A DNA stretch of 64,000 nucleotides, taken from NCBI RefSeq assembly GCF_022808325.1, contig NZ_JALGCL010000002.1:1-64000 (forward strand). Reading direction: 5' to 3'. The DNA comes from Cognatiluteimonas sedimenti (GTDB lineage Bacteria > Pseudomonadota > Gammaproteobacteria > Xanthomonadales > Xanthomonadaceae). The notes below the pieces were generated by a model. It was given only the letters and a program-made list of their open reading frames with translations, was not told the origin of the DNA and did not search any database. A program made the translations under genes and the position numbers. Of this stretch, positions 10,117-62,475 are shown one piece after another. How positions within the stretch are numbered: position 1 is the stretch's first letter; each line of letters begins with the position of its first letter.

Positions 10117-10169
10117 GCGCGTGCATGACGCATCGACCAAGACGGATCGACTATGGAGAGGATGAACTG

Positions 10170-10769
10170 ATGGGCAATCGACGGTTCCAGGCCCGACGCA
10201 TGGTTCGCGTGTCGCCAAACGCTGGCAGCCACGCCATGTGCGGCGCGCAGAACAGCCGCAGGCGAACGAGTGACGCACGCCGTGCCGACGGCATGTACAA
10301 CGCGGACATGAGCCGCAGGCGCATGGAGGGCGCACGCCGTGGCGACGGCTTGCGTCACGTCGCGGCGTACGGATCCGCCATGCGCGGCTTCAGCCTGATC
10401 GAGATCATCCTGGTGGTGGTGCTGATCGGCGGCATCGTCGCCTTCGCCGCCAGCCGCATCCTCGGCGGCGGCGACCGCGCCAAGGCCAACCTCGCCAAGG
10501 CGCAGGTACAGACGCTGGCCGAGAAGGTGCAGCAGTACGAAATGGACACCGGCACCTTGCCCGGATCGCTCGACGCGCTGGTCGACAATCCGGGTAATGC
10601 CACCGGCTGGCTGGGCCCGTACGCCAAGGCAGCCGAACTCAAGGATCCGTGGAACCACGCCTACGAATACCGCGTGCCCGGCGATGGCCAGCCGTTCGAC
10701 CTGATCAGCCTGGGCAAGGACGGCCAGCCGGGCGGCGAAAGCGTCGACGGCGACGTGAAGTACCAGTAG
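10170..10769 (+). CDS. gspG: Major pseudopilin GspG with an unusually long, Arg-rich leader
   Basis: The processed protein is a classic GspG. The PilD site is MRG/FSLIEIILVVVLIGG, with Phe1 and Glu5 of the mature form, followed by an amphipathic helix and the C-terminal region with GWLGPY, DPWNHAYEYR and the calcium-site loop (GQPGGESVDGD). The Met of MRGF at 10380 has no ribosome site. The in-frame ATG at 10170 has a strong one (GGAGAGGA, 10155-10162, seven bases away). That start gives 199 residues with a leader of about 73, against the usual 5-25. The extra leader is Arg-rich and contains sequence repeated in the gspI leader. If translation began at 10380, the product would be 129 residues with a three-residue leader. 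Confidence 0.85.
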   Translation: MGNRRFQARRMVRVSPNAGSHAMCGAQNSRRRTSDARRADGMYNADMSRRRMEGARRGDGLRHVAAYGSAMRGFSLIEIILVVVLIGGIVAFAASRILGGGDRAKANLAKAQVQTLAEKVQQYEMDTGTLPGSLDALVDNPGNATGWLGPYAKAAELKDPWNHAYEYRVPGDGQPFDLISLGKDGQPGGESVDGDVKYQ

Positions 10770-10797
10770 CCGCGCGTTACGGGCCGGGGTCGGGAAT

Positions 10798-11415
10798 GTG
10801 GTGAGCCGAAGCGCCCCGCTGACGGGTCCTGCGAGCCGTGGCGGCGGTGACGCGGGGCAGGGCCGTGGGCTTGCGGGTGGGACAAGCCACGGCGACGGCT
10901 TGGCGACGCCGGCACGGCGTTCAGGCTTGCGCGGCGATGGCTTGCGCAACGCGGTAGCGGGTGCATCGACCATGCGCGGTTTCTCGCTGCTCGAGATCGT
11001 GCTGGTGATCGCGATCATCGCGCTCGCCAGCCTGCTCGCGGCGGCCGCGCTCGGCGGTGGCATTGACGGGCTGCGCCTGCGCTCGGCGGCGAAGGAAGTC
11101 GCCGCGCAGTTGCGCTACACCCGCGCCCAGGCGCTGGCGACGGGCGAGCCCCAGCGCTTCACGATCGATCCCCATGCCCACACCTGGAGCGCGCCGAAGC
11201 AGCGGCATGGCACCCTGCCGGAACAGCTCGGCATCGTGTTCACCGGCGCGCGCGAAGTCCAGCCCTCGCGCGGCGAAGGTGCGATCGTGTTCTTCGCCGA
11301 CGGCGCCTCCACCGGCGGGCGCGTGCAACTGCAGGTGGACGACGCGGCGTGGAAGGTGGATGTCGCCTGGCTGACCGGGCAGGTGCGGCTGGCGCGCACG
11401 GAGGCGGTGCGGTGA
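10798..11415 (+). CDS. gspH: Minor pseudopilin GspH with expanded leader
   Basis: The PilD site MRG/FSLLEIVLVIAIIAL, with Glu5, is at codon ATG 10972. The mature part (about 145 residues) has the GspH features: RSAAKEVAAQLRYTRAQALATG after the hydrophobic helix and a beta-rich C-terminal half. The frame is open upstream to GTG codons at 10798 and 10801, which would give 205 residues and a 61-residue leader. I report the long form because neighbouring gspG and gspI have good ribosome sites at the matching upstream positions. Here the upstream site is weak and the start is uncertain. The leader part contains NAVAGASTMRGF, close to the gspI leader. GspH is a minor tip or shaft pseudopilin of the secretion pseudopilus. 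Confidence 0.8.
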   Translation: MVSRSAPLTGPASRGGGDAGQGRGLAGGTSHGDGLATPARRSGLRGDGLRNAVAGASTMRGFSLLEIVLVIAIIALASLLAAAALGGGIDGLRLRSAAKEVAAQLRYTRAQALATGEPQRFTIDPHAHTWSAPKQRHGTLPEQLGIVFTGAREVQPSRGEGAIVFFADGASTGGRVQLQVDDAAWKVDVAWLTGQVRLARTEAVR

Positions 11416-12044
11416 GCGGTGTCTGCGACGTGCTGGTGGCCTCCAAGGCGAAAGCCAGGATGCCGGTTTTCAGGGCCCCCGACGGTTTGGAGGGTCCGAC
11501 GGCGCCTGCAGGCGCCTTGCGCGGCCGCGGCGGCAGTCCGGACAACATGAGGAACCGCCGCGGGCGAGCGGGTAACGCGGGCCGTGCCGACGGCATATGC
11601 AATGCGGTAGCGGGTCCATCCACCATGCGCGGCTACACCCTGATCGAGGTGATCATCGCCTTCGCGATCCTCGCGCTGGCGCTGACCTTGCTGCTGGGGA
11701 CGTTGTCGGGCGCGGCGCGGCAGGTGCGATGGGCCGAAGAAGCCGGGCGCGCGGCGCTGCACGCGCAGTCGCTGCTCGACCAGGTCGGCGTCGGCGAAGT
11801 GCTGCAACCCGGCCACAGCGAAGGCGATTTCGAGCACGGTCGCTATCGCTGGACGCTCGACGTGGCGCCGTACCAGGATCCGCTGCTGCCGCCGACCATC
11901 GCCCGCGACTTGTCGGCGCCGCAGTTGCTGCAGCTGTCGCTGGCGGTGCAATGGGGCGACGGCGACGATCCACGCCGCCGGCTGCAACTGCAATCGCTGC
12001 GCCTGGTGACGCCGGCAGCGGTGGCCGCGGAGCCGCCGTTGTGA
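11412..12044 (+). CDS. gspI: Minor pseudopilin GspI with expanded leader
   Basis: The PilD site MRG/YTLIEVIIAFAILALAL lies at ATG 11625. The mature protein of about 137 residues matches GspI, with VRWAEEAGRAALHAQSLLDQVG after the helix. A GTG at 11412 overlaps the gspH stop (GTGA) and has GGAGG (11400-11404) seven bases upstream, the best start in the frame. It gives 210 residues and a leader of 74. An intermediate ATG at 11547 would give a 29-residue Arg-rich leader. The end of the leader (NAVAGPSTMRG) repeats the gspH leader, and about 11553-11607 matches the gspG leader at about 10254-10308. GspI is part of the pseudopilus tip complex with GspJ and GspK. Confidence 0.82.
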   Translation: MSGVCDVLVASKAKARMPVFRAPDGLEGPTAPAGALRGRGGSPDNMRNRRGRAGNAGRADGICNAVAGPSTMRGYTLIEVIIAFAILALALTLLLGTLSGAARQVRWAEEAGRAALHAQSLLDQVGVGEVLQPGHSEGDFEHGRYRWTLDVAPYQDPLLPPTIARDLSAPQLLQLSLAVQWGDGDDPRRRLQLQSLRLVTPAAVAAEPPL

Positions 12045-12697
12045 GGGCGGGGCGATCAACCATGCGCGGATTCACCCTGATCGAGGTGCTGCTGGCGACC
12101 GCGCTGCTCGCCGCGGGGCTGGCGCTGGCGTTCGCGACGCTGCGCGCCGCCACCGCCACCGCCAACCGCGGCGAGGCGATCGCCGCGCGCAGCGAACGCA
12201 TGCGCGCGGTCGAGGGCTTCCTGCGCGCGCGACTGGTCGCGACCCGGCCGGTGGCCTTCGCGATCGAGGCCGACAGTGGCCTGGCGCAGCGCTTCGTCGG
12301 CGAGCCCGGGCGCATGCGCTTCGTCGCCGACCTGCCAGATTACCTGGGCCATGGCGGCCCGTACCTGCACGAGTTCGCGGTCGAGCGCGACGGCGGCGAC
12401 ACGCTGCGCCTGACCGTGGCGCTGTCGGTGGTGCAGGGCGGGGAAGTGGTCCAGGAGCGCGAACCGCGCGCGCCGGAACTGCTCGCCGAAGGACTGCGCG
12501 CGGTGCGCTTCCGTTATCGGGCGATGGATGCCGATAATCGCCTGGGCCAGTGGCAGGAACAGTGGCGCACCCCGGAGGCCTTGCCCTTGCAGGTGGAGAT
12601 CGACCTGCAGGACGCCGATGGCCGCGACTGGCCGCCGCTGGTGGTGGCCTTGCCGCTGGCCGGCAGCTACGCCGCCGCGCCGGGGAACATGCAATGA
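12041..12697 (+). CDS. gspJ: Minor pseudopilin GspJ
   Basis: Protein of 218 residues, starting at GTG 12041 that overlaps the gspI stop in a GTGA. The leader ([10 protein letters not shown]) is of normal length, unlike those of gspG, H and I, and PilD would cut before [16 protein letters not shown]. The C-terminal part is beta-rich with the pattern [14 protein letters not shown] and [15 protein letters not shown]. The typical GspJ tip-complex protein binds GspI and GspK. Its short leader is a useful internal reference for how the neighbouring leaders probably looked before expansion. Confidence 0.9.
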
Positions 12698-61611: not shown

Positions 61612-62475
61612 TTACCGCAGCCCGGAAAACCGCAGATACGCGTCGACCATCCAGTCGCCCCAGAAGAACACGATCCAGCCGGCGACGGCCAGGTAGGGGC
61701 CGAACGGGATCGGGGTGGCGCGATCGCGGCCCCTGGCCGCCAGCCAGATCGAGCCGACGATGGCGCCGACCAGCGACGACAGCAGGATCGTCGGCAGGAT
61801 GCCCTGCAGGCCCACCCAGGCGCCCAGCGCGGCCAGCAGCTTGAAGTCGCCGTGGCCCATGCCTTCCTTGCCGGTGAGCTGCTTGAACAGCCACCACACC
61901 GACCACAGGCTCAGGTAGCCGATGACCGCGCCGACCACCGCCGGCTTGCTCGGCAGGTACAGCGCATCGATGCTGGCGATCAATCCCAGCCACAACAACG
62001 GCAGGGTCAGCTGGTCGGGCAGCAGCTGCGTGCGCAGGTCGATGCCCGACAGCGCGACCAGGAAACAGGTCAGTACGATCGCGCCGAAGCCCTGCCAGCC
62101 GAAACCGAAGCGCCACACGCAGCACAGCACCAGCAGCATGGTCAGCAGTTCAACCAGCGGGTACTGGATCGAGATCGGCGCATGGCAGTGGCGGCAGCGC
62201 CCGCGCAGCGCCACCCAGCTCAGCACCGGGATGTTCTCGTACCACGACAGCTGCGCCTTGCAGTGCGGGCAGTGCGAGCGCTCGACCACGATCCCCGGCG
62301 GTGGCGGATCGTAGATCTCCGGCTCGCCCAGCACTTCCAGGCTGTCGCGCTTCCACTGCCATTCCAGCCGCCTGGGCAGGCGCAGGATCACGACGTTGAG
62401 GAAGCTGCCCAGCAGCAGCCCGAGGCCGGCCGCGACCGGGAAGCCGAGGCCGGGGTTCTGGTCCAGAAAAGACAT
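61612..62475 (-). CDS. pilD: Prepilin peptidase / N-methyltransferase PilD
   Basis: Polytopic protein of 287 residues. The cytoplasmic loop has the zinc cysteines C69, C72, C94 and C97 (two CxxC pairs) found in bifunctional enzymes. Catalytic Asp residues are D146 (LSGIDLRTQLLPD) and D210 (GMGHGDFKLLAALGAW). It cuts and N-methylates type IV pilins and should also process GspG-K at 10170-13602, where the sites are MRG/F or MRG/Y. It is downstream of pilC. Confidence 0.96.
   Translation of the reverse strand: MSFLDQNPGLGFPVAAGLGLLLGSFLNVVILRLPRRLEWQWKRDSLEVLGEPEIYDPPPPGIVVERSHCPHCKAQLSWYENIPVLSWVALRGRCRHCHAPISIQYPLVELLTMLLVLCCVWRFGFGWQGFGAIVLTCFLVALSGIDLRTQLLPDQLTLPLLWLGLIASIDALYLPSKPAVVGAVIGYLSLWSVWWLFKQLTGKEGMGHGDFKLLAALGAWVGLQGILPTILLSSLVGAIVGSIWLAARGRDRATPIPFGPYLAVAGWIVFFWGDWMVDAYLRFSGLR

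Follow-up and report, generated by a model that had tools for sequence, protein, structure and literature searches.

The pseudopilins GspG and GspI of Cognatiluteimonas sedimenti are probably translated from upstream start codons and carry leader peptides of several-fold the usual length; the same would probably hold for GspH. These leaders, presumably removed by the prepilin peptidase PilD, appear to have grown in frame, partly through copies of a small palindrome-cored DNA unit that ends at the cleavage site. We base this reading on sequence, namely on the frame and the openness of the leaders, the overlap of starts with preceding stops, the fixed spacing and the recurrence of the unit, and the lack of amino-acid constraint. 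Judged by these features, the occurrence of long leaders in this group of Lysobacteraceae is well supported, and their growth through a defined unit is supported in part.

Probable long pseudopilin leaders in the window

The window, i.e. the whole stretch of 64,000 nucleotides that was analysed, holds genes for type II secretion. GspG, GspH, GspI and GspJ alone were compared with Pfam, and the neighbours gspE, gspF, gspK and onward were named by reading their translations. The mature proteins are encoded on the forward strand, as are all features below unless indicated: GspG at 10389..10769 (Pfam T2SSG, E 1.9e-27), GspH at 10981..11415 (Pfam GspH, E 5.3e-10), GspI at 11634..12044 (Pfam N_methyl and operon order) and GspJ at 12071..12697. 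The first three passed the Pfam cut-offs; GspJ passed that of N_methyl, its T2SSJ match (E 4e-5) being below cut-off. All four show Gly at position -1, Glu at +5 and a hydrophobic stretch. A Peptidase_A24 domain, assigned to PilD, lies on the reverse strand of the window (61753..62079, E 1.0e-28) and is the sole match in the genome.

By direct reading, open frames lead up to the MRG codons at 10380 in gspG (70 codons from ATG 10170), at 10972 in gspH (58 codons from GTG 10798) and at 11625 in gspI (71 codons from GTG 11412). The first-pass annotation had described such open frames of 58-71 codons before each MRG site, and every position it gave agrees with the sequence. Counted up to the cleavage Gly codon, the putative leaders comprise 73 codons in GspG (10170..10388, from ATG to GGC), 74 in GspI (11412..11633, from a GTG that overlaps the gspH stop as GTGA) and possibly 61 in GspH (10798..10980), where the frame is open from a GTG of uncertain use. 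By contrast, gspJ starts at GTG 12041, likewise in a GTGA overlap and with a gap of 23 nt to the previous stop; its leader of ten codons (12041..12070) is without the unit and was correctly noted before as being of normal length.

These proteins share features with type IV filament subunits that have class III (prepilin) signal peptides: the leader is rich in Arg, its final Gly precedes F/Y-(S/T)-L-(I/L)-E, and there is a hydrophobic stretch. In the available part of a review, class III leaders are given as 6-26 residues long, and as ~15-30 for type IVb (PMC4471445). In contrast to these, the GspG and GspI leaders have 73 and 74 codons from the best-supported starts, and leaders in relatives have up to 115, which exceeds the reviewed range (6-26, to ~30 residues). 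This range is a convention of length and not a functional requirement. Leader length is variable, and some pilins of Streptococcus sanguinis have "very long" leaders according to the accessible portion of another article (PMC10191384). Of the six non-T2SS prepilins of the C. sedimenti genome, the four that were read have leaders of 7 to ~33 residues at most, counted from putative starts, and these are without the unit.

Shine-Dalgarno-like sequences precede the upstream starts of gspG (GGAGAGG, 10155..10161, 8 bases 5' of ATG 10170) and gspI (GGAGG, 11400..11404, 7 bases 5' of GTG 11412), as the first-pass annotation had claimed. This holds by reading of the sequence; a simple ribosome-site score, applied to gspG and gspH only, gave 4-letter matches at both ATG 10170 (GGAG) and ATG 10380 (GATC), so that the score alone cannot separate the two gspG starts. 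Translation could alternatively begin at the MRG codons, giving three-residue leaders; the upstream DNA would then be a spacer that is not translated and owes its open frame to chance in GC-rich DNA. In line with this, an ATG is present at the cut in gspG, gspH and gspI, long open frames are common in the window DNA, and in gspH the score found a 4-letter match (GGTG) at the cut ATG 10972 and none at GTG 10798 or 10795. We nevertheless consider such short leaders very unlikely, given the strong-looking sites before the upstream gspG and gspI starts and the comparisons that follow.

The nearest named relatives are C. weifangensis (recorded as Luteimonas) and C. telluris (recorded as Lysobacter), with GspG identities of 91% and 85%, respectively. 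C. weifangensis gspG (L068) has the same ribosome site and the same first ten residues, MGNRRFQARR, with a leader of 57 instead of 73 codons; the difference in length amounts to 2 nt in the spacer before the start and to 48 nt in the leader. MGNRRF is also kept in G035 (L011), where the leader has 30 codons. This common upstream start argues against initiation at the MRG codon. So does the GspI leader of C. weifangensis, which ends in SAARG and has no Met at the cut, although a GTG occurs 8 codons upstream of the cut, as does another 3 codons before the cut of its GspJ leader, which has 115 codons as compared to the normal one in the window. For gspH, the congeners G004, G007 and G008 have leaders of 29-30 residues that contain the unit and start with (M/V)A. 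Given these three congeners and their similar start, 58 codons for gspH in the window may be too many. The proposal of an in-frame expansion between upstream start and PilD site thus stands for gspG and gspI, while the far start of gspH is unproven.

The leaders differ from mature GspG in how they diverge. Between the window and C. weifangensis, differences by codon position are 6/4/27 in mature GspG (128 codons), compared to 17/18/18 in the gspG leader (56 aligned codons) and 25/22/28 in the gspI leader (56 codons). The GC content at third positions of the window leaders is 0.81 (gspG), 0.73 (gspH) and 0.78 (gspI) as compared to 0.88-0.91 in the mature parts; the third-position bias is weak in these leaders and absent in that of gspH. 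The leader peptide thus appears hardly constrained in its amino acids, apart from the frame and the cut. Flat substitutions and a weak GC bias are equally expected of untranslated DNA, and this weak coding signature is in favour of initiation at the MRG codons; the frame, the openness and the start argue otherwise.

Reading phase and openness across Lysobacteraceae

The starts of gspI and gspJ normally overlap the stop of the preceding gene. If leaders grow while being translated, the distance from this stop to the cleavage codon must therefore hold a single phase. We compared gspG-J in 60 Lysobacteraceae genomes, hand-picked with weight on close relatives from the 211 of 247 family genomes that have a GspG match. 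One locus (L160), with gspI not recognised and a gspJ gap that contains stops and departs from the phase, was dropped before the junctions were counted; 23 loci with only three recognised genes, L160 included, contributed no gspI junction. The cleavage codon was in frame with the stop-overlapping start in all of the 98 scorable junctions (38 of gspI and 60 of gspJ, from 60 loci including the window), counts that are not independent since the junctions are related by kinship. With L160 set aside, the out-of-frame upstream sequence in relatives that would have spoken against the first-pass annotation was thus sought and not seen at any gspI or gspJ junction. The single phase is not trivial, because gspH, which has no fixed start-stop overlap and served as a control, shows mixed phases (12/11/15, n=38).

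Gaps exceed 60 nt in 24 of the 98 junctions (68-338 nt). Each of these long gaps has an overlapping start, ATG in 15 and GTG in 9 cases, and their 1237 in-frame codons contain no stop, compared to 44 stops in 2426 codons of the other two frames. The maintenance of phase and openness over these 24 gaps is difficult to reconcile with an untranslated spacer. Moreover, 16 of the 24 leaders have no ATG, GTG or TTG within 20 codons of the cut, and hence a short leader is no option for them; gspI of the window is outside this group because of the ATG at its cut. Long leaders are not confined to the strain of the window: leaders of 40-115 codons occur in gspI or gspJ of 9 out of 60 loci. These 14 leaders belong to two genera (g1, g28), and 8 of them have no start within 20 codons of the cut. 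The remaining 10 of the 24 have only 25-34 codons.

In other genera, the gspJ leaders of L155, L164, L169, L186 and L195 are of a different type of ~30 residues that lacks the unit and has common features, one of which, GFNPALGHSPRAFSR, is found in two of the five. G001, a genome of the same genus as the window that is 99% complete, gave no GspG match, which may reflect loss of the secretion system.

A unit next to the cleavage site

Related sequence among the leaders had been pointed out by the first-pass annotation, and all of it is present: GCCGTGCCGACGGCAT occurs in gspG (10279-10294) and in gspI (11581-11596), and NAVAGASTMRG of the GspH leader has its counterpart in NAVAGPSTMRG of the GspI leader. 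A degenerate block pattern, which was written from these leader copies, has six matches with at most two mismatches in the window versus 0.09 expected; four leader copies match it without mismatch, two in gspG and one each in gspH and gspI. Throughout the C. sedimenti genome, the pattern has 10 matches versus 2 in a reversed control, and only the four leader copies are mismatch-free. Units of 17 codons reach up to the cut in gspG (10338..10388, core CGTGGCGACGGC at 10338-10349, identified by pattern match and fixed spacing), gspH (10930..10980, core CGCGGCGATGGC at 10930-10941) and gspI (11583..11633, core CGTGCCGACGGC at 11583-11594). A repeat search further revealed an in-frame tandem period of 57 nt in the gspG leader, the two copies of which (10250..10305 and 10307..10362) are 70% alike; the model R1 matches within the first (10255-10305, E 4.6e-8). 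The idea that repeat DNA was inserted three times is therefore to be modified: copies of the unit explain part of the growth, but there are four clear units, two of them in gspG, and much of each leader consists of other sequence.

The spacing of the unit is strikingly constant. A pattern made up of the core, 24-54 free bases (a 30-nt range) and a prepilin site, when run against the 247 family genomes, gave 16 matches in 11 genomes and none in the reversed control. In 15 of the 16, the palindromic core CGTGSCGACGGC is followed by exactly 36 bases and starts exactly 17 codons before the cleavage Gly. These 15 fall in three genera (g1, g7, g28), and the lone match with another spacing (G189) looks like chance. 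By amino-acid pattern and spacing, we counted 22 units in 15 of 61 loci, a number that includes those of L184, L185 and L194, which fit the pattern and look like chance. The core Arg codon is CGT in 16 of the 22. Among the Arg codons of mature GspG-J in nine loci, the share of CGT is 8.7%, and it is 16.3% for the long gspI and gspJ leaders, units included. The second codon of the unit varies between Gly, Ala and Val, its third base being invariant. The nucleotides are thus conserved as well as the peptide, since the core uses an otherwise rare Arg codon and the third base of the second codon is fixed.

The unit was found in gspG, gspH, gspI and gspJ in one genome or another. The gspI leader of G007 (L151) contains three tandem copies with a 51-nt period that encode RGDG-VAG-SS repeats. 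A second prepilin operon of G126 (L212, G126:C42:161500-165500) has the unit before the cut in three prepilins, one of these leaders having an altered core and a distance to the cut that is five codons longer. An alignment of 25 out of 33 units, from which four further core matches had been excluded beforehand as likely chance, shows a strongly conserved core, GCCGTGGCGACGGC, that is able to form a 5-bp hairpin. Structure prediction on this alignment gave the 5-bp stem and a 4-nt loop only, and the unit is not palindromic over most of its length. No covariation is visible, as four of the five pairs never vary and no pair has changed on both sides. A comparison of six unit-bearing loci with Rfam gave no family at gathering score, all four matches at E up to 1 being below it.

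These properties might reflect selection, with the unit acting on translation, membrane targeting or processing as an RNA hairpin (GCCGU-N4-ACGGC) or as a peptide. The exact 17-codon spacing, the core that keeps its rare codon while the flanks diverge, and the presence in all four genes of various genomes and in the second operon of G126 are consistent with such a role. We regard it as unlikely, considering that the strict pattern is found in only 11 of 247 genomes, one of them probably by chance, that the invariance of four pairs leaves no covariation to be seen, and that copies also occur after parE, outside prepilins.

Our preferred reading is that of translated and discarded leaders that grow by this and other sequence. 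Translation would start at the upstream codons, with gspI (and gspJ) coupled to the preceding gene by the start-stop overlap, and the genome's single prepilin peptidase would remove the long leaders at the usual Gly/Phe or Gly/Tyr site; for the window, we infer both the use of these starts and the cleavage. The GspH leader would likewise be long, from an uncertain start. Being discarded, the leader sequence would be nearly free to change and could thus collect in-frame insertions and tandem duplications, in particular of the palindrome-cored unit of ~51-75 nt. Because the downstream end of the unit coincides with the Arg-Gly codons of the cleavage site, every new copy would spare the site. We further infer that the unit may be mobile and without function, and that the frame would have persisted since any event that shifted it would cost the cell a needed pseudopilin.

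How the unit came to be shared is a separate question. Gene conversion or unequal exchange via the shared FTLIE region might have spread a single ancestral extended leader among the genes, with no mobile element involved. Leader ends that are common within a genome, such as NAVAG-STMRG in H and I or the ATCNACCATGCGCGG that precedes the cut in H, I and J, would fit such an exchange; we find it doubtful as an explanation, as it accounts neither for the parE-linked copies nor for additional stretches of repeat-like character in the G231 leader regions. Tentatively, the unit could instead be an element without match to the searched families, the 3' end of which supplies the cleavage Arg-Gly and which repeatedly inserts or duplicates at this position, giving rise to leaders as long as 115 residues. 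The compared genomes yielded no prepilin with a base-exact empty site. If this element reading is true, cleaved leaders would shelter mobile DNA within genes that are needed. If the preferred reading is true, the prepilin peptidase would tolerate leaders much longer than the 6-30 residues stated in the accessible part of a review (PMC4471445), and the unit, with its fixed place beside the cleavage codon, would exemplify DNA that builds up within a needed gene while the mature protein bears no visible cost. Such leaders would also provide a natural test of the required leader content, and a warning that the start annotation of prepilins may err in either direction.

Copies outside prepilins and known small elements

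A genome-wide dispersed repeat as source of the leader sequence was ruled out in C. sedimenti. A blastn search with the gspI block yielded no convincing copy outside the operon in this genome, the block pattern gave no further mismatch-free copy, and the bare core is not enriched (11 matches versus 16 in the reversed control). We then applied a profile of the unit to 25 genomes, scoring 150 first-look candidates per genome. It gave at least 30 matches at E<=1e-6, most of them training sequences; among the matches listed, 24 are in prepilin leaders and six elsewhere, and five of these six had likewise been used for training. The six non-prepilin copies are located after parE in C. sedimenti (two, both diverged) and in G231 (one), in G255 (one) and in G013 (two).

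At parE of C. sedimenti (G000) and G231, the stop codon is followed by the unit and then by a second copy of the 3' end of the gene. In C. sedimenti this forms a 124-nt tandem repeat of 2.2 copies (L208 1487-1757; G000:C1 ~920986-921256) that joins the unit core with the parE 3'-end copy, and in G231 (L215) the 3'-end copy has 27 nt with one mismatch. The arrangement is similar but degenerate in G035, and G188 has a unit-like stretch without the duplication; neither unit nor duplication was seen in the 197 bases read at parE of G007, G008 and G151. On this thin evidence, the parE arrangement could point to a small element that either inserts itself or triggers duplication.

Several known elements invite comparison. 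The unit sits in frame within coding sequence, as do the Rickettsia palindromic elements, small palindromic DNA found in frame within protein-coding genes. In the available part of their description, these are ~150 bp long and occur in unrelated genes (PMC10969869), whereas the unit has few copies, mostly in one type of gene and at one position, within the discarded part of the protein. The enterobacterial small mobile sequences RU-1 to RU-3 are set apart by what we could consult of their description, which gives other hosts and larger units (103-168 bp) and contains no repeated association with one class of proteins. A short palindrome is also a feature of REP elements; these are high-copy and extragenic as far as the accessible text states (PMC3733652), unlike the unit, the core of which is not enriched in the C. 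sedimenti genome. Among the matches listed by a text search of the literature, neither leaders of this kind nor the unit had been described.

Further repeat-like stretches are present in the gspH and gspJ leader regions of G231 (VIPAKAGIH; PHPNPPPQAGEG), which we take to be translations of common dispersed repeats. In G013 (L226, G013:C1:4046678-4046932), the two unit-like copies are ~180 nt apart, and each is followed by a similar GGTCAGCCGGCGGGGTTACC stretch. The unit-like copy of G255 outside prepilins (L222, G255:C1:1785400-1787400) is flanked by the similar sequences ATCGTAGAAAAGAAAGCT and ATCGTGGAAGAGAAGGCT, and intergenic stretches resembling those of G255 are found in G243 and G203 (L257, L258).
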